Of a DNA stretch of 64,000 bases, positions 2,123 through 60,135 are shown one piece after another. The notes beneath the pieces were generated by a model. It made no database searches, had not been told where the DNA came from, and was given only the letters and a program-made list of their open reading frames with translations. The stretch lies in assembly GCA_016188005.1 (NCBI GenBank), contig JACPIQ010000008.1:192484-256483 (forward strand), in the 5' to 3' direction. The stretch is from Candidatus Rokuibacteriota bacterium. Lineage in GTDB: Bacteria; Methylomirabilota; Methylomirabilia; Rokubacteriales; CSP1-6. A program made the translations under genes and the position numbers. Every line of letters begins with the position of its first letter. Position 1 is the first letter of the stretch.

Positions 2123-3256
2123 ATGCGGGTCGCCCTGTTCACCAACAACTACCTGCCCTTCCGGGGCGGCGTCACCACCGCCGTGGAGACGCTCCGCGAG
2201 GGGCTCGAGCGCCTCGGGCACCGCACCTGGGTGTTCGCGCCGGCGCCGGCCGCGCCGGCGGAGGACCCGCCGCGCGTCTTCCGCTACCCGTCGATCCCTG
2301 CGCCCACCTATCCCGGCTTCGCCCTCCCGTTGCCGTTCTCGCCGCGGCTGGGGCGGGCGGCGCGCGGGCTCGGCCTGGACGTCATCCACGCCCAGCACCC
2401 TTTTCTCCTGGGTGTCACGGCGAGGCGATTCGCCCGGCGGCAGCGCCTCCCGCTGGTCTTCACGTACCACACGCGCTACGAGAAGTACGCCCACTACGTG
2501 CCGCTCCCGCAGCGGTTCGTCCGGGCCCTCGCGGTCCGGCTCTCCTGCCGCTTCGCTGACTCGGCGGACGTGGTGGTGGCGCGCGGCGTCGGCACGCGCG
2601 TGGCCGTCGTGCCCACCGGCGTCCCCGTGGAGCAGTTCGTGCCGGGCGACCCGGCCGCGGCCCGGCGGCACCTCGGGCTGCCCTCCGGGGCGCCCCTCTG
2701 CCTCTACGTGGGGCGGCTCGACCGGGAGAAGAGCGTGGAGCGCGTCATCGCGGCGTTCGGGTCCATCGCCGGGGCGATGTCGGACGCGCGGCTCTGGCTG
2801 GTGGGGCAGGGCAGCCATGCCGAGGCGCTTCGCCGGGCGGCCGAGGCGAGCTCGGCGCGCGACCGGATCCACTTCCGGGGGGGCGTCGCGCGGGCAGCGC
2901 TGCCGCCCTACTACCAGGCCGCGGACCTCTTCCTCTTCGCCTCCGAGACGGAGACCCAGGGGCTCGTCCTCGCCGAGGCCCACGCCTGCGGGCTGCCGGC
3001 CGTGGCGGTGCGCGCCTCTGGCGTCGAGGAGGTCGTCGTCGACGGTGAGACGGGCATCCTCACGAAGTCCGATGCCGGCGATCTCGCGGACGCCGCCATC
3101 GCGCTCTTGCTCGACCCCGAGCGACGCCGCGCGATGGGAGCGGCCGGGCGGGCCGTGGCCGAGCGCTCCTTCTCCGCCTCGGCACAGGTGGCGGCCATGG
3201 CGGCCGAGTACTCGCGCCTCTTGGCCCCCTCCCCGCTCGCGTCGCCGCCCCGATGA
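2123..3256 (+). CDS. GT4-family glycosyltransferase (mannosyltransferase-like)
   Basis: The 377-residue protein has the two Rossmann lobes of GT-B enzymes. The N-terminal lobe starts RVALFTNNYLPFRGGV, with a glycine-rich acceptor loop. The C-terminal lobe has the YVGRLDREKSV donor-binding strand near residue 195 and the E-x7-E retaining motif near residue 275, followed by EAHACGLPAVAV. It is similar to PimB/PimC-like and diglucosyldiacylglycerol-type enzymes that glycosylate membrane lipids from a nucleotide sugar. No membrane segment is visible. The last codons (PPR and TGA) lie inside the 5' edge of the hairpin element that fills the following gap, so the element supplies the natural stop. 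The donor and acceptor cannot be assigned. Confidence 0.88.
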   Translation: MRVALFTNNYLPFRGGVTTAVETLREGLERLGHRTWVFAPAPAAPAEDPPRVFRYPSIPAPTYPGFALPLPFSPRLGRAARGLGLDVIHAQHPFLLGVTARRFARRQRLPLVFTYHTRYEKYAHYVPLPQRFVRALAVRLSCRFADSADVVVARGVGTRVAVVPTGVPVEQFVPGDPAAARRHLGLPSGAPLCLYVGRLDREKSVERVIAAFGSIAGAMSDARLWLVGQGSHAEALRRAAEASSARDRIHFRGGVARAALPPYYQAADLFLFASETETQGLVLAEAHACGLPAVAVRASGVEEVVVDGETGILTKSDAGDLADAAIALLLDPERRRAMGAAGRAVAERSFSASAQVAAMAAEYSRLLAPSPLASPPR

Positions 3257-3383
3257 GCCCGAAGGGCGAAGAGGCCGAACCGCAACGCAGAGTCTGTCAC
3301 GTTCAGGCGACATGGTGAGAGCCCGAAGGGCGAAGAGGCCGAACCGCAACGCAGAGTCTGTCACGTTCAGGCGACATGGTGAG
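3249..3383 (+). repeat. Hairpin element, locus 1, with 64-bp tandem duplication
   Basis: Bases 3255-3318 and 3319-3382 are two consecutive copies of a 64-bp unit that I see as identical. Each contains GCCC-GAA-GGGC (a four-pair hairpin), GAAGAGGCC, AACCGCAACGCAGA and CGTTCAGGCGACATGG. The 5' flank GCCCCGATGA overlaps the stop of the glycosyltransferase and the 3' end supplies the ATG of the next small gene. Related single copies lie at 10,849-10,922 and 24,900-24,993 with different but still pairing stem bases. Confidence 0.85.
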
Positions 3384-3636
3384 TAGCCGCGAGCTGCAAC
3401 TGGAGCTCCGGCCGGAGTGGCAGGCAGCCGGCACCGGCTCGGGGCGCAGCGGGCTCCTGGCGGGGGACGGACGGGTGCGCACCCTTGTGCGGGTCCTGGT
3501 GACCTATCCCGAGGTGCAGTACGTCCTGCCCGACCGGATCCGCCTCGAGCCGTCGTCGGATCCGCGTCTTCTGGAGAGCCTCGCACGCTTTCTCGAGCGC
3601 CAGTCATGGCTCGTCGAGCGGGTCACCCTGCGCTGA
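3376..3636 (+). CDS. Hypothetical 86-residue protein
   Basis: I do not recognise this small protein. It begins MVSSRELQLELRPEW and is predicted to be mixed alpha/beta with no signal peptide or membrane segment. The C-terminal half is a charged helix (ESLARFLERQSW) with a beta-like end. The start ATG at 3376 is contributed by the second copy of the 64-bp repeat, with only a weak AGGCGAC upstream. The same start context exists in the first copy but leads into the repeat, not the gene. It ends 22 nt before the diiron protein and could be a small partner subunit, as PaaB is to PaaA, but no sequence similarity to PaaB is apparent. Confidence 0.55.
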   Translation: MVSSRELQLELRPEWQAAGTGSGRSGLLAGDGRVRTLVRVLVTYPEVQYVLPDRIRLEPSSDPRLLESLARFLERQSWLVERVTLR

Positions 3637-24910: not shown

Positions 24911-24993
24911 GCGCCAAAGGCGCGAAGAGGCCAAACCGCAGGCGCGAAGAGGCCAAACCGCAACGCAGACTCTTCGACGTTCAAGCAAGAGGA
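24900..24993 (+). repeat. Hairpin element, locus 3, with internal 22-bp duplication
   Basis: The element starts GGCGCCCCGATGAG, with its TGA being the stop of the molybdenum enzyme. GCGCC-AAA-GGCGC forms five pairs, a base combination different from loci 1 and 2. GGCGCGAAGAGGCCAAACC and its following bases are present twice in tandem (22-bp period), then AACGCAGA and CGTTCAAGCAAGAGG, which here includes a usable ribosome-binding site for the V4R gene. Confidence 0.8.
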
Positions 24994-56069: not shown

Positions 56070-57323
56070 CTAGCCGGCCTCCCGGTACCGGCGGAGCGCA
56101 CCGAGGAGCTGCGGCGGCAGCTCGACCTCGAGGCGGATGCCGTCGGCCTCGTCCGAGCGGTCGAGCACGCGTCCCCGGTCATAGCAGAGTGCCAGCGCTG
56201 GCCCATCCCGGTAGGGGATGCGGAGTACCGCGCGCTCGACATGCCCGCGCAGCATTTCCTCGATGCGATCCAGCAGCCGGTCCAGCCCCTGGCCGCTGCG
56301 CGCAGAGATCGGCACCCCGTCGAAGCGCTCCACCAGCATGCGCGGGGCGGCCCCTCCCTCGTTGCGGTCGATCTTGTTCAGCGCCACGATCGTGGGGCGC
56401 TCGCCGAGGCCCAGCTCGAGGAGCAGGCCCTCCACCGCGGCCACCTGCTCCTCGAGGCCGGCGTGGCTGGCGTCCACGACGTGGAGCAGGAGGTCGGCCT
56501 GCTCCAGCTCCTCGAGCGTGGCCTTGAAGGCCTCCACGAGCTGATGCGGGAGCTTGCGGATGAAGCCCACCGTGTCGGTGAGGATGAAGGGCACGCGCTC
56601 CCCGCCGTCCACGAGGCGGGCGGTCGGGTCCAGGGTGACGAAGAGCCGGTCGGCCGCGGTGCGATCAGCTCCCGTCAGCCGGTTCAGCAGCGTCGTCTTG
56701 CCGGCATTGGTGTAGCCGACGAGGGCCACCACCGGGAAGCCCGTGGCCTTCCGCCGCTCCCGCACGAGGCGCCGGTGGGAGCGCACGCGCCGGAGCTCCT
56801 CCCGGAGCTTCTGGATACGGTGGCGGATGACCCGCCGGTCGGACTCCAGCTGGGTCTCCCCGGGGCCCCGGGTCCCGATGCCGCCGCCCAGCCGCTCCAG
56901 GTGCTTCCACTGCCCGACGAGCCGCGGCAGCAGGTACGAGAGCTGCGCCAGCTCCACCTGCAGCTTGCCCTCCATGCTGCGGGCGCGCTGCGCGAAGATG
57001 TCGAGGATGAGGGCGGTGCGGTCGATGACCTTGAGACCCAGCGAGCCGCCGAGGTTGCGCTCCTGGATGGGCGAGAGCGGGTCGTCGGAGATCATGAGGT
57101 CGGCGCCATGCTGCTGGGACCAGGCCCTGAGCTCCTCCACCTTCCCCTTCCCGAAGTAGAGCCCCGGCGTGGGCGCCTTCCGCTCCTGAGTGACCCGGCC
57201 GACGACCTCCGCTCCGGCGGACTCCGCCAGCCGTTCCAGCTCGTCCAGCGACTCCTCCACCTCGAAGCGCCGCTGGGTGGGAAGTCGCACCGCGCCCAGA
57301 ACAGCCTTCTCGCGAGCGGTCAC
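56070..57323 (-). CDS. hflX: GTPase HflX
   Basis: The 417-residue protein has the HflX N-terminal domain with GLYFGKGKVEEL near residue 53 and the glycine-rich GGGIGTRGPGETQLESDRR near 146. The G domain has GYTNAGKT near 203, DTVGF near 249 and NKID near 317. It is a 50S-binding GTPase that splits or rescues stalled ribosomes under heat stress. The GTG start overlaps the miaA stop by 4 nt. In enterobacteria hfq lies between miaA and hflX; here there is no room for it. Confidence 0.95.
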   Translation of the reverse strand: MTAREKAVLGAVRLPTQRRFEVEESLDELERLAESAGAEVVGRVTQERKAPTPGLYFGKGKVEELRAWSQQHGADLMISDDPLSPIQERNLGGSLGLKVIDRTALILDIFAQRARSMEGKLQVELAQLSYLLPRLVGQWKHLERLGGGIGTRGPGETQLESDRRVIRHRIQKLREELRRVRSHRRLVRERRKATGFPVVALVGYTNAGKTTLLNRLTGADRTAADRLFVTLDPTARLVDGGERVPFILTDTVGFIRKLPHQLVEAFKATLEELEQADLLLHVVDASHAGLEEQVAAVEGLLLELGLGERPTIVALNKIDRNEGGAAPRMLVERFDGVPISARSGQGLDRLLDRIEEMLRGHVERAVLRIPYRDGPALALCYDRGRVLDRSDEADGIRLEVELPPQLLGALRRYREAG

Positions 57324-58309
57324 TCGAGCAACCTCTCCGTCGCCAGGAGGTCACGGATGCGCTCCGCAGCGGCGGCGAGGCCACCCACCGCGTCCACGTC
57401 CAGCCAGCGGATCTCGACGTCCCGCGCGAACCAGGTCAGCTGCCGCTTCGCGTAGCGGCCGGTATCCCGGATCATGAGCCGCACCGCCTCCGCCTCGGGC
57501 ATGCGCCCGCCGATCACTGCGCAGAACTGACGGTAGCCGATGCCGTTCATGGCCGGGAGCCCGTCCGTACAGCCGGCGGCGAGCAGCCGCCTCACCTCGT
57601 CGATCATCCCACGGGCGACCATAGCGCGCACCCGCTCGACGATGCGCCCATGGAGCGCTGGACGTGGCCGATGCAGGCCCACCATGAGGAGGCGGAAAGC
57701 CGGCGTGCTTCGGCCCCAGCTCGGGCCGGAGGGCGCGGCGCCCCGCCCGCGCCCCTGGGAGGCGGCTGGCGCGTCCCCCGGTCCGGCAGCCAGCGCGACC
57801 TCCAGGGCCCGGATGAGCCTCACGCGGTCGTTGGGGTGCAGGCGCTCGGCGGCGGCGGGGTCCCGCTCGCGGAGCTTTGCATGGAGCGCGGCCGGGCCGC
57901 GCTCCCGCGCGAGGACCTCGAGCTCTCGCCGGAGGGCAGGATCCGCCGGCGGGCCAGGGTCGAGCCCCTTGAGCAGCGCCCGGACATAGAGCCCGGTGCC
58001 CCCCACGACCGCTGGCAGCCGGCCGCGCCCGCGGATGTCGGCGATCGCGCGCAGCGCGTCCTGCCGGAAGCGCGCGGCGTGATAGCGCTCATGGGGTTCG
58101 GCGATGTCGATGAGGTGATGGGGGACGGCCCGCCGCGCCGCCTCGGACGGCTTGCCGGTGCCGATGTCCATGCCGCGATAGACCTGACGCGAGTCGGCGC
58201 TCACCACCTCCATCGGTACCGAGCAGGCCAGCCGGACCGCGACGTCGGTCTTGCCGACCGCGGTGGGGCCCACGATGACGAGCAGCGGCTCAGCTCGCCC
58301 GACTTCCAT
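57320..58309 (-). CDS. miaA: tRNA dimethylallyltransferase MiaA
   Basis: The chosen start, ATG 58309, gives 329 residues with a proper GAGGGGAG site; upstream in-frame starts at 58357 and 58402 come from tandem copies of the same region. The P-loop IVGPTAVGKT lies near residue 12, SADSRQVYRGMDIGTGKP near 37 and VVGGTGLYVRALLKG near 103. A zinc-free C-terminus with TGRYAKRQLTWF follows. An Ala/Gly/Arg-rich insertion near residues 195-220 (ASQGRGRGAAPSG) is not usual. MiaA adds the dimethylallyl group to A37 that MiaB later thiomethylates. Confidence 0.94.
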   Translation of the reverse strand: MEVGRAEPLLVIVGPTAVGKTDVAVRLACSVPMEVVSADSRQVYRGMDIGTGKPSEAARRAVPHHLIDIAEPHERYHAARFRQDALRAIADIRGRGRLPAVVGGTGLYVRALLKGLDPGPPADPALRRELEVLARERGPAALHAKLRERDPAAAERLHPNDRVRLIRALEVALAAGPGDAPAASQGRGRGAAPSGPSWGRSTPAFRLLMVGLHRPRPALHGRIVERVRAMVARGMIDEVRRLLAAGCTDGLPAMNGIGYRQFCAVIGGRMPEAEAVRLMIRDTGRYAKRQLTWFARDVEIRWLDVDAVGGLAAAAERIRDLLATERLLE

Positions 58310-58396
58310 CTCCCCTCGCCTCGCCGTGAGACCCGGCTCAGCTCGCCCGACTTCCATCTCCCCTCGCCTCGCCGTGAGACCCGGCTCAGCTCGCCC
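58286..58396 (-). repeat. 48-bp tandem duplication of the miaA translation start region
   Basis: Bases 58286-58333 and 58334-58381 are identical 48-bp units, followed by 15 bp of a third copy (58382-58396) that reaches the mutL stop. Each full unit contains, on the minus strand, GGCGAGGGGAG followed by ATGGAAGTCGGGCGAGCTGAG. So each copy has its own ribosome-binding site and ATG, all in the same frame as miaA (16 codons per unit). Confidence 0.92.
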
Positions 58397-60135
58397 TACC
58401 ACGTCCGCCGGAGCTCGCGGCGGATCTCACGGAGGGAGAGGCGCGAGACGATTGGCCGGCCATGGGGACAGAAGTAGGGCTCGCGCGCCGCGCCGAGATC
58501 GGCGATCAGCCGCCGCATCTCCTCGCGCTCGAGCGGGGCCGGCGCCTTGATGGCCGCCCGGCAGGCCACGAAGGCCAGCGCCCGGTCGAGCAGCGGGGCT
58601 TCCCCTTCCCGCCCCGGTGCCGCCACCTCCTCGAGCATGCGCTGGATCAGCGGCCCGGGCTCGCGTCCCCCGAGAAGCACCGGCACCGAGCGGAGCAGCA
58701 CGCTGGCGCCGCCGAAGCCCTCGAGGGCGAAGCCCAGACGCCCGAGCGTGGGCGCCCACTCGGCGAGCTGCGCGGCCTCCGCCGGGGGCAGCTCGAGCAC
58801 CTGAGGGAAGAGGAGCTCCTGGGCGGGAAGCGTATCGCCCACGAGATCCGCCTGGAGCCGCTCGAAGAGCACCCGCTCATGCGCCACATGCTGGTCGATG
58901 AAGAAGACCTCCTCGTCGGTCGCCGAGACGAGGAAGGTCTCCTGCAGCTGGCCCACGACGGTGCCGAAGCGATCGCGAGCCGGGGTGGGCGCCTCCTCCA
59001 TGAAGAGCGCCGCTTGAGCCGTCGTCGTCGCCGGCCCGGTTGGCAACGACCCCGCACCGTCGCCGGCCGGGCCCTGCACTCCGGCGTCCGGCCTCCCCGC
59101 GGCGGGGCCCCCGAGCCCCGGCTGCGGCTGCACGACCTGGGCCGAGCGCAGCGCTTCCTGGACGGCGAGGAAGAGCATGTCCTGGATCACCCGGGGGGCG
59201 CGGAAGCGCACCCAGGCCTTCGTCGGGTGGACATTCACGTCGATCTCCTGCGGGGGAAGCGTCAGCGAGATCACGGCGGCCGGGAACTGCTCTCGCGCCA
59301 GCATCGGCCGGTAGGCCTCGAGCAGCGTCTGCGTCAGCAACGCGTCCCGGATCGGACGGCCATTGACGAGGAAGGTGATGGCCTCGCGGCTCCCGCCCGC
59401 CGCCTGGGGCGGCGCCACGAGCCCGGAGAGCCGGGCGCCGTGGCTGGCGCGTTCCACCTCGAGCATCCGTCCCGCCAGGTCGAAGCCGTGCAGCGCGCCC
59501 ACGCGCTCGCGCAGCGTGGCAGCCCGTGGCGCGCTCAGCACGGGCTTGCCGTCGTGGGTGGCGCGGAAGTGGATCTCGGGATGGGCGAGCGCCAGGGCCT
59601 GGAGGAGCCGCAGGACCGCCGCGAGCTCGGCGCGAGCGCCCTTGAGGAACTTGAGCCGGGCCGGGGTGTTGAAGAACAGATCCGCGATCTCCACGGTGGT
59701 GCCCGAGGGGGCGGGGACGCTCATGGGATCCCCCGCCACCCCGCCCTCGCCGCGGAGGAGCGTTCCCGTCCCGGCTCCGCCCGGGCACGACAGCAACGAG
59801 AACCGGCTCACCGCGCAGATGGCCGGCAGCGCCTCCCCCCGGAAGCCGAGCGTGCGGATAGCCTCCAGGTCCGCCTCGTCGGCGATCTTGGAGGTGGCGT
59901 GGCGCAGCAGGGCGCAGCCCAGCTCCTCCGCCGTCATTCCCGTCCCGTCGTCGCTCACGCGGACGAGCTGGCGCCCGGCGTCCCGCAGCTCGAGCGCGAT
60001 GCGGGCGCTGCCGGCGTCGATGGAGTTCTCGACGAGCTCCTTCACGACGGAGGCCGGCCGCTCGACGACCTCTCCGGCGGCGATCTTGTTCACCAGCTGG
60101 TCCGGCAGCCGCCTGATCCTGGACTGACGGCTCAT
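58396..60135 (-). CDS. mutL: DNA mismatch repair protein MutL
   Basis: The 579-residue protein has the GHKL ATPase motifs at the N-terminus (ENSIDAG, DDGTGM, TLGFRGEAL), then LVNGRPI and DVNVHPTKAWVRF. A Pro/Ala/Gly-rich linker follows at about 345-395. The C-terminal domain carries the nicking-endonuclease motif DQHVAHERVLFE, ACRAAIKA and CPHGRP, so this is the endonuclease-type MutL found in bacteria without MutH. It starts at ATG 60135, overlapping the mutS stop by 4 nt. It coordinates mismatch repair after MutS binding. Confidence 0.95.
   Translation of the reverse strand: MSRQSRIRRLPDQLVNKIAAGEVVERPASVVKELVENSIDAGSARIALELRDAGRQLVRVSDDGTGMTAEELGCALLRHATSKIADEADLEAIRTLGFRGEALPAICAVSRFSLLSCPGGAGTGTLLRGEGGVAGDPMSVPAPSGTTVEIADLFFNTPARLKFLKGARAELAAVLRLLQALALAHPEIHFRATHDGKPVLSAPRAATLRERVGALHGFDLAGRMLEVERASHGARLSGLVAPPQAAGGSREAITFLVNGRPIRDALLTQTLLEAYRPMLAREQFPAAVISLTLPPQEIDVNVHPTKAWVRFRAPRVIQDMLFLAVQEALRSAQVVQPQPGLGGPAAGRPDAGVQGPAGDGAGSLPTGPATTTAQAALFMEEAPTPARDRFGTVVGQLQETFLVSATDEEVFFIDQHVAHERVLFERLQADLVGDTLPAQELLFPQVLELPPAEAAQLAEWAPTLGRLGFALEGFGGASVLLRSVPVLLGGREPGPLIQRMLEEVAAPGREGEAPLLDRALAFVACRAAIKAPAPLEREEMRRLIADLGAAREPYFCPHGRPIVSRLSLREIRRELRRTW

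Follow-up and report, generated by a model that had tools for sequence, protein, structure and literature searches.

The tandem duplication at the mutL-miaA junction is, on the evidence of sequence comparison, one instance of a lineage-specific family of hairpin repeats that occupies gene junctions. It lies in a stretch of 64,000 nucleotides (the window) from a genome of Candidatus Rokuibacteriota bacterium, here called G000. Probably, the array belongs to a REP-like family of repeats dispersed in this lineage, one unit of which was inserted at the junction and subsequently duplicated. What looked like a single odd duplication thus becomes a repeat found across the lineage, with some junctions filled and others empty when sister species are compared, and therefore the role of REP-like hairpins at stop codons can be read comparatively from genomes.

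TRF reports at 58286-58396 a period of 48, with 2.3 copies and 100% match, so that the 48-bp tandem repeat described in an earlier, sequence-only reading of this DNA is present as claimed (Table 1). The identities of MiaA, MutL, MutS, and HflX were confirmed with NCBIfam, and the MutL C-terminus reads ...RRTW-TAG. Gene starts were taken from our own codon-usage gene caller, which was trained on the window and called 63 genes there (94% coding). The core motif with one mismatch occurs twice in the window, against a mean of 0.11 in shuffled windows searched with up to three mismatches, and a chance origin of these copies is excluded. An assembly error is also unlikely as the source of the duplication, because the array is only 111 bp long and the family has many independent members; arrays in draft genomes could nevertheless be collapsed, and the copy numbers given below are read accordingly. 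A separate observation concerns a further genome, G004, in which the same junction (L109 / L169) carries an unrelated tandem duplication that takes in the 3′ end of mutL with its stop codon.

Table 1. Features of the mutL-miaA junction, in window coordinates
Feature	Position	Strand	Remark
mutL, upstream gene	58396..60135	-	gene caller + NCBIfam
mutL stop TAG	58398-58396	-	
GTAG directly before first hairpin; includes mutL stop TAG	58396..58399	-	
GTG overlapping mutL end (GTGGTAG); weak SD	58400..58402	-	
Tandem array, 2.3 perfect copies of 48-bp type-A unit	58286..58396	-	first base = last base of mutL stop
Array unit 1	58396-58349	-	
Hairpin core, unit 1	58362..58395	-	covariance model R1 match
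ATG from unit 1; upstream context identical; would add 16 residues	58355..58357	-	
Array unit 2	58348-58301	-	
Hairpin core, unit 2	58314..58347	-	covariance model R1 match
ATG from unit 2; most likely miaA start; GAGGGGAG just upstream	58307..58309	-	Walker A distance, SD energy -8.6
Partial third unit, 15 nt; read as MiaA N-terminus coding sequence	58286..58300	-	
miaA, downstream gene	57320..58309	-	gene caller + NCBIfam

The array is far from alone. When it was compared with its own genome, 30 matches of 68-100% identity were obtained, one of which is the array itself, and the core GGCGAGGCGAGCGGANATGG with at most two mismatches is found at 75 places in G000, while the reversed-pattern control is found at 1. 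The contexts of 96 pattern matches, at 52 G000 loci, reveal a modular repeat. Type A, the type of the window, is a hairpin of 34 nt and type C one of 29 nt; after either of them comes a spacer containing ATGG and then, often, a second, small hairpin (CCGAGCGGAGCGAGG or GGCGAGCGTGAGCGAGCC). A compound element of 117 bp makes up type D, and type E is a longer element (about 250 bp) in the opposite orientation. The covariance models R1 and R2 each match 27 of 60 genomes; together they cover 29 of the 36 family-f1 genomes and, outside this family, 1 of 24, with one match; the match counts per genome are at least the numbers found among the best candidates scored. A search of 19 and then 4 loci against Rfam 15 gave no match in the arrays; elsewhere in these loci it gave one sub-threshold match in L140, and tRNAs in L179. 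The 29-letter core had no match in viral contigs. The earlier reading had attached significance to the neighboring mismatch-repair genes, which would normally limit slippage; the repeat is present at dozens of other junctions as well, so that the mutL context appears coincidental, and a special link to mismatch repair is not upheld.

Several other repeats were noticed in passing. The window contains a second repeat motif (GAGCCCGAAGGGCGAAGAGGCCGAACCGC...) at 3255-3388, with a 64-bp unit in 2.1 copies, and a 22-bp version of it at 24918-24962. Both have their start at a TGA stop codon or directly behind it, and ATGGTGA closes the repeat at 3255, at the following gene. At L180:4927-5061 there is a dispersed hairpin of ~130 bp that ends in a T run like a terminator; it has more than 20 copies each in the relatives G001 and G002 (~80-98% identity) and no Rfam match. 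Type E (L016, L017, L143, L144, L151, L152, L156, and L159) holds a hairpin, GGCGCGAGGCGTAC...GTACGTTGAGCGCC, with a fold z of -4.2, which resembles this 130-bp family; six of these arrays are separated by 56-57 nt from the end of the opposite-strand neighbor and two by 117 nt.

The hairpin of the family is conserved. The type-A fold is.((..(((..((((((...))))))..)))..)) and that of type C is a shorter version with a bulge. The type-A sample comprises 20 distinct units taken from four genomes: 93.2% of cells are paired, changes on both sides are seen in 5 of 11 pairs, and the covariation is 0.305, compared with at most 0.115 in slid controls. In 27 type-C units, 97.7% of cells are paired, and one pair shows a C-G to G-C exchange in 7 units. 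For type A and type C alike the covariation score was reached by 0 of 500 shuffles, a count that is not a probability because the units are related. Both internal loops are conserved tandem G.A mismatches within CGAG, a context in which such mismatches form a stable sheared motif. In the window's own unit the stem is weakened (GCCGGGTCTCACGGC, RNA fold z -0.15) and the second small hairpin is missing; for these reasons, a structural role at the mutL-miaA site itself is doubtful by the fold predictions.

Placement relative to genes was analyzed in G000 with the same gene caller. The 52 loci gave 50 arrays, and 41 were analyzed after nine type-E arrays had been set aside; the array counts omit L142, which repeats L002, and L145, L153, L155, L158, and L162, in which the regular expression found no unit. 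Thirty-three of the 41 arrays are located between two same-strand genes, 26 of them cleanly and 7 with the upstream ORF reading into the array. Among the others, the gene on the array's strand is only the upstream one in 3 cases and only the downstream one in 1 case, 1 array is opposite to both neighbors, and 3 are without one neighbor. Wherever the upstream gene could be assigned, it is almost always on the strand of the array (37 of 39 arrays), and a manual row count over 35 further loci in relatives gave the same strand for the upstream or enclosing gene in 30 of 33 placeable arrays. The family has the properties by which a REP is recognized: a hairpin repeat of 20-40 nt, present in many copies and mainly between genes. 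Furthermore, the distance from the stop codon to the beginning of the first unit is 0-11 nt in 20 of the 26 clean arrays, inside the 15-nt range from a stop codon in which REPs act on translation of the upstream gene, and in 4 more the stop codon is 5-10 nt inside the first unit. If placement in the remaining gap were uniform, 15.0 of 22 would be expected against the 20 observed (3 in 10,000 simulations, P 0.0003, with arrays taken as independent although they are related). Even where the gap leaves 30 nt or more to spare, 4 of 5 arrays abut the stop codon, compared with 0.6 expected.

First units of type A are preceded by GTAG in 9 arrays and by GCAG in 4, so that GYAG stands ahead of 13 of the 15 type-A arrays; in six of the nine with GTAG (L001, which is the window's array, L002, L003, L007, L009, and L160) the letters are TGGTAG. 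GTAG precedes only 2 of 26 type-C first units, and inner units are rarely tagged. The tag raises the question of whether these are true GTAG-class REPs, mobilized by a RAYT that was lost or is missing from the assembly. Known GTAG REPs give TAG stop codons to flanking ORFs, as far as the available part of PMC3733652 goes, and the transposase domain (Y1/RAYT, PF01797) has one match each in the congeners G001 and G002. It has 0 matches in G000, an assembly 98% complete, and the RAYT-family gene of G001 (L170) is not flanked by repeat units; type C, moreover, is without the tag, and head-to-tail dimers, described as rare in the GTAG families in the same part of that paper, are the rule here. We regard such an origin as rather unlikely.

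Comparison with relatives provides empty sites. The G002 and G001 genomes are syntenic with G000 in the compared regions, the longest pieces being 88-95% and 81-92% identical, respectively. In the empty sites of these relatives, stop and start codons overlap or abut. For example, at L176 (minus strand, 12150), G001 reads CACCTGATGGATCTC and G002 GACTAGATGGATCTC, while in G000 TGATGG and ATGG are separated by two units; an empty TGATGG or TAGATGG is thus opposed to a filled TGATGG-element-ATGG. A gene that we take from its motif to be hisG-like is empty in G001 (TGATGGACAGG, with TGATGG) and has a type-D element after TGATGG in both G000 and G002; by manual reading, the G000 element continues the frame of the old start without a stop. 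The ATGA junction at L178 (18923) is unfilled in G001 and holds one unit in G002 and four in G000. Masked stretches occur in G002 at two sites. Copy number alone differs at L178 (minus strand, 18573; 1 versus 2 units) and at L176 (16865; 3 versus 1). Two junctions, L176 (minus strand, 16504) and L179 (19723), are without usable anchors in the relatives. ATGG on both sides, the sign sought in a check for target-site duplication, is present at 1 of 3 class-1 junctions with an empty counterpart and was not seen at the other two.

The mutL-miaA junction follows the same pattern. In several more distant relatives (e.g., L125, L110, and L114) the two genes overlap or abut without the repeat. The 2.3 units of G000 are replaced in G002 by at least six of 48 bp, where the contig ends in the array, and in G001 by type-D units, so that the copy-number variation suspected earlier does exist between species. 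Such fast turnover of unit types and copy numbers between sister species is also what selfish, neutral miniature elements would show, tolerated at junctions only because insertions elsewhere are purged and supplying stops and starts only incidentally. Junctions would be the least harmful places for insertion, and the stem at the window's site is decayed; the abutment to stop codons despite spare gap and the strong strand bias tell against it, as do the compensatory changes that keep the hairpin, though a transposition substrate would be kept likewise. We give this explanation a serious, if less than even, chance.

Whichever start serves, the miaA start signal would come from the array or its edge. 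The GTG and the two ATGs of Table 1 share one open frame, and the 16 residues added by each 48-bp unit are borne out by it. The ribosome-binding site is borne out for the two ATGs and weak at the GTG: the predicted pairing with an assumed 16S tail sequence is -8.6 kcal/mol, fairly strong, for both ATGs, whose upstream sequences are identical, and only -2.2 kcal/mol for GTG 58402; 27% of 62 called window genes match or exceed -8.6 kcal/mol. Most relatives have a possible MiaA start about 9-16 codons ahead of the Walker A motif, and since the three starts lie 13 (ATG 58309), 29 (ATG 58357), and 44 codons (GTG 58402) ahead of it, ATG 58309 is the likeliest start by sequence, while GTG 58402 is possibly the ancestral one. 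The start closest to the conserved MiaA region on its upstream side is a repeat-borne ATG at 20 codons in G001 and a hairpin-loop GTG at 14 codons in G002; in three species, then, the predicted miaA start codon is inside the array. MiaA relatives from a wider contig search (80 loci, ~38-52% identical) were too distant to inform on the junction. A gene that we take to be RimM-like starts, by manual reading, within the repeat in G000 and within the hairpin loop in G001. Caution is warranted, as genes such as miaA can have their start sites inside repeats.

These starts bear directly on the idea that the duplication arose by local slippage of the miaA start region and serves a functional, phase-like variation of the MiaA N-terminus. 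The two units are identical and in frame, their length of 48 bp is divisible by three, and the species differ in copy number, all in keeping with such tuning. However, TGA stops interrupt the miaA frame within the G002 array, for which reason length variation that preserves the frame is not a conserved property; only some of the spacings between the (related) units in G000 (17 of 30) are multiples of three; the canonical MiaA length fits the last ATG only; and the unit is found at many other junctions. We consider the idea highly improbable.

Under the insertion and duplication that we favor, a hairpin unit would have entered the tight mutL/miaA stop-start junction on the operon strand, beside GTAG, and then been duplicated head to tail via slippage or unequal recombination. 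Mobility may be provided by a transposase in trans. In the mRNA, the array between the cistrons would give MiaA its start codon, its ribosome-binding sequence, and its first residues, and it may influence translation termination, re-initiation, or mRNA stability, by analogy with REPs within 15 nt of stop codons. A bolder reading, which we hold to be unlikely, would make the family a portable operon-junction cassette with a stop codon (the TAG of GTAG or the stem TGA), a tandem-G.A hairpin, and a start signal (the spacer ATGG or the hairpin-loop GTG) in one element; it would break overlapping stop-start junctions, and its copy number would reset translational coupling and N-termini genome-wide. 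Do stop-adjacent REP-like hairpins make N-termini and uncouple operon genes? Comparison of genomes can address this.

In the literature found for the lineage or for such junction repeats, mostly judged from listings, no description of the family was encountered, and the available part of PMC5712423 makes no mention of repeats, palindromes, or intergenic or tandem elements. The kind is known, and it is the combination of stop and start supply, tandem-G.A hairpins, and copy-number turnover at operon junctions that is undescribed in that literature. In-frame fusion of small mobile repeats is known for RPE of Rickettsia, YPAL/RU-2, and ERIC (PMC2229807, as far as available): like them, the present units are small repeats in frame with conserved proteins, with empty and filled sites, but those elements are about 100-170 bp, whereas here hairpins of 29-34 nt form units of ~43-120 nt at operon junctions. 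REPs of Escherichia coli less than 16 nt from the stop codon down-regulate translation (cited in PMC12306157, of which a part was available). The hairpin described here likewise stands 0-15 nt after the stop codon in an operon; it differs from the E. coli REP/BIME in sequence and structure and in supplying start codons. The nearest known kind is the REP/BIME elements, especially the GTAG-tagged superfamily. According to the accessible text of PMC3733652, that superfamily differs in several respects: here head-to-tail arrays dominate, the stem has two conserved tandem G.A steps, the unit carries a start codon (ATG or GTG) and a second, small hairpin, the tag is absent from type C, and RAYT was not found in G000. 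The same text describes much that is shared, namely a short imperfect hairpin that is flanked 5′ by G(T/C)AG (in type A) and located intergenically, near the 3′ end of an upstream ORF whose stop codon is the TAG, and some copies that encode N-terminal residues. The repeat family would work like a REP.
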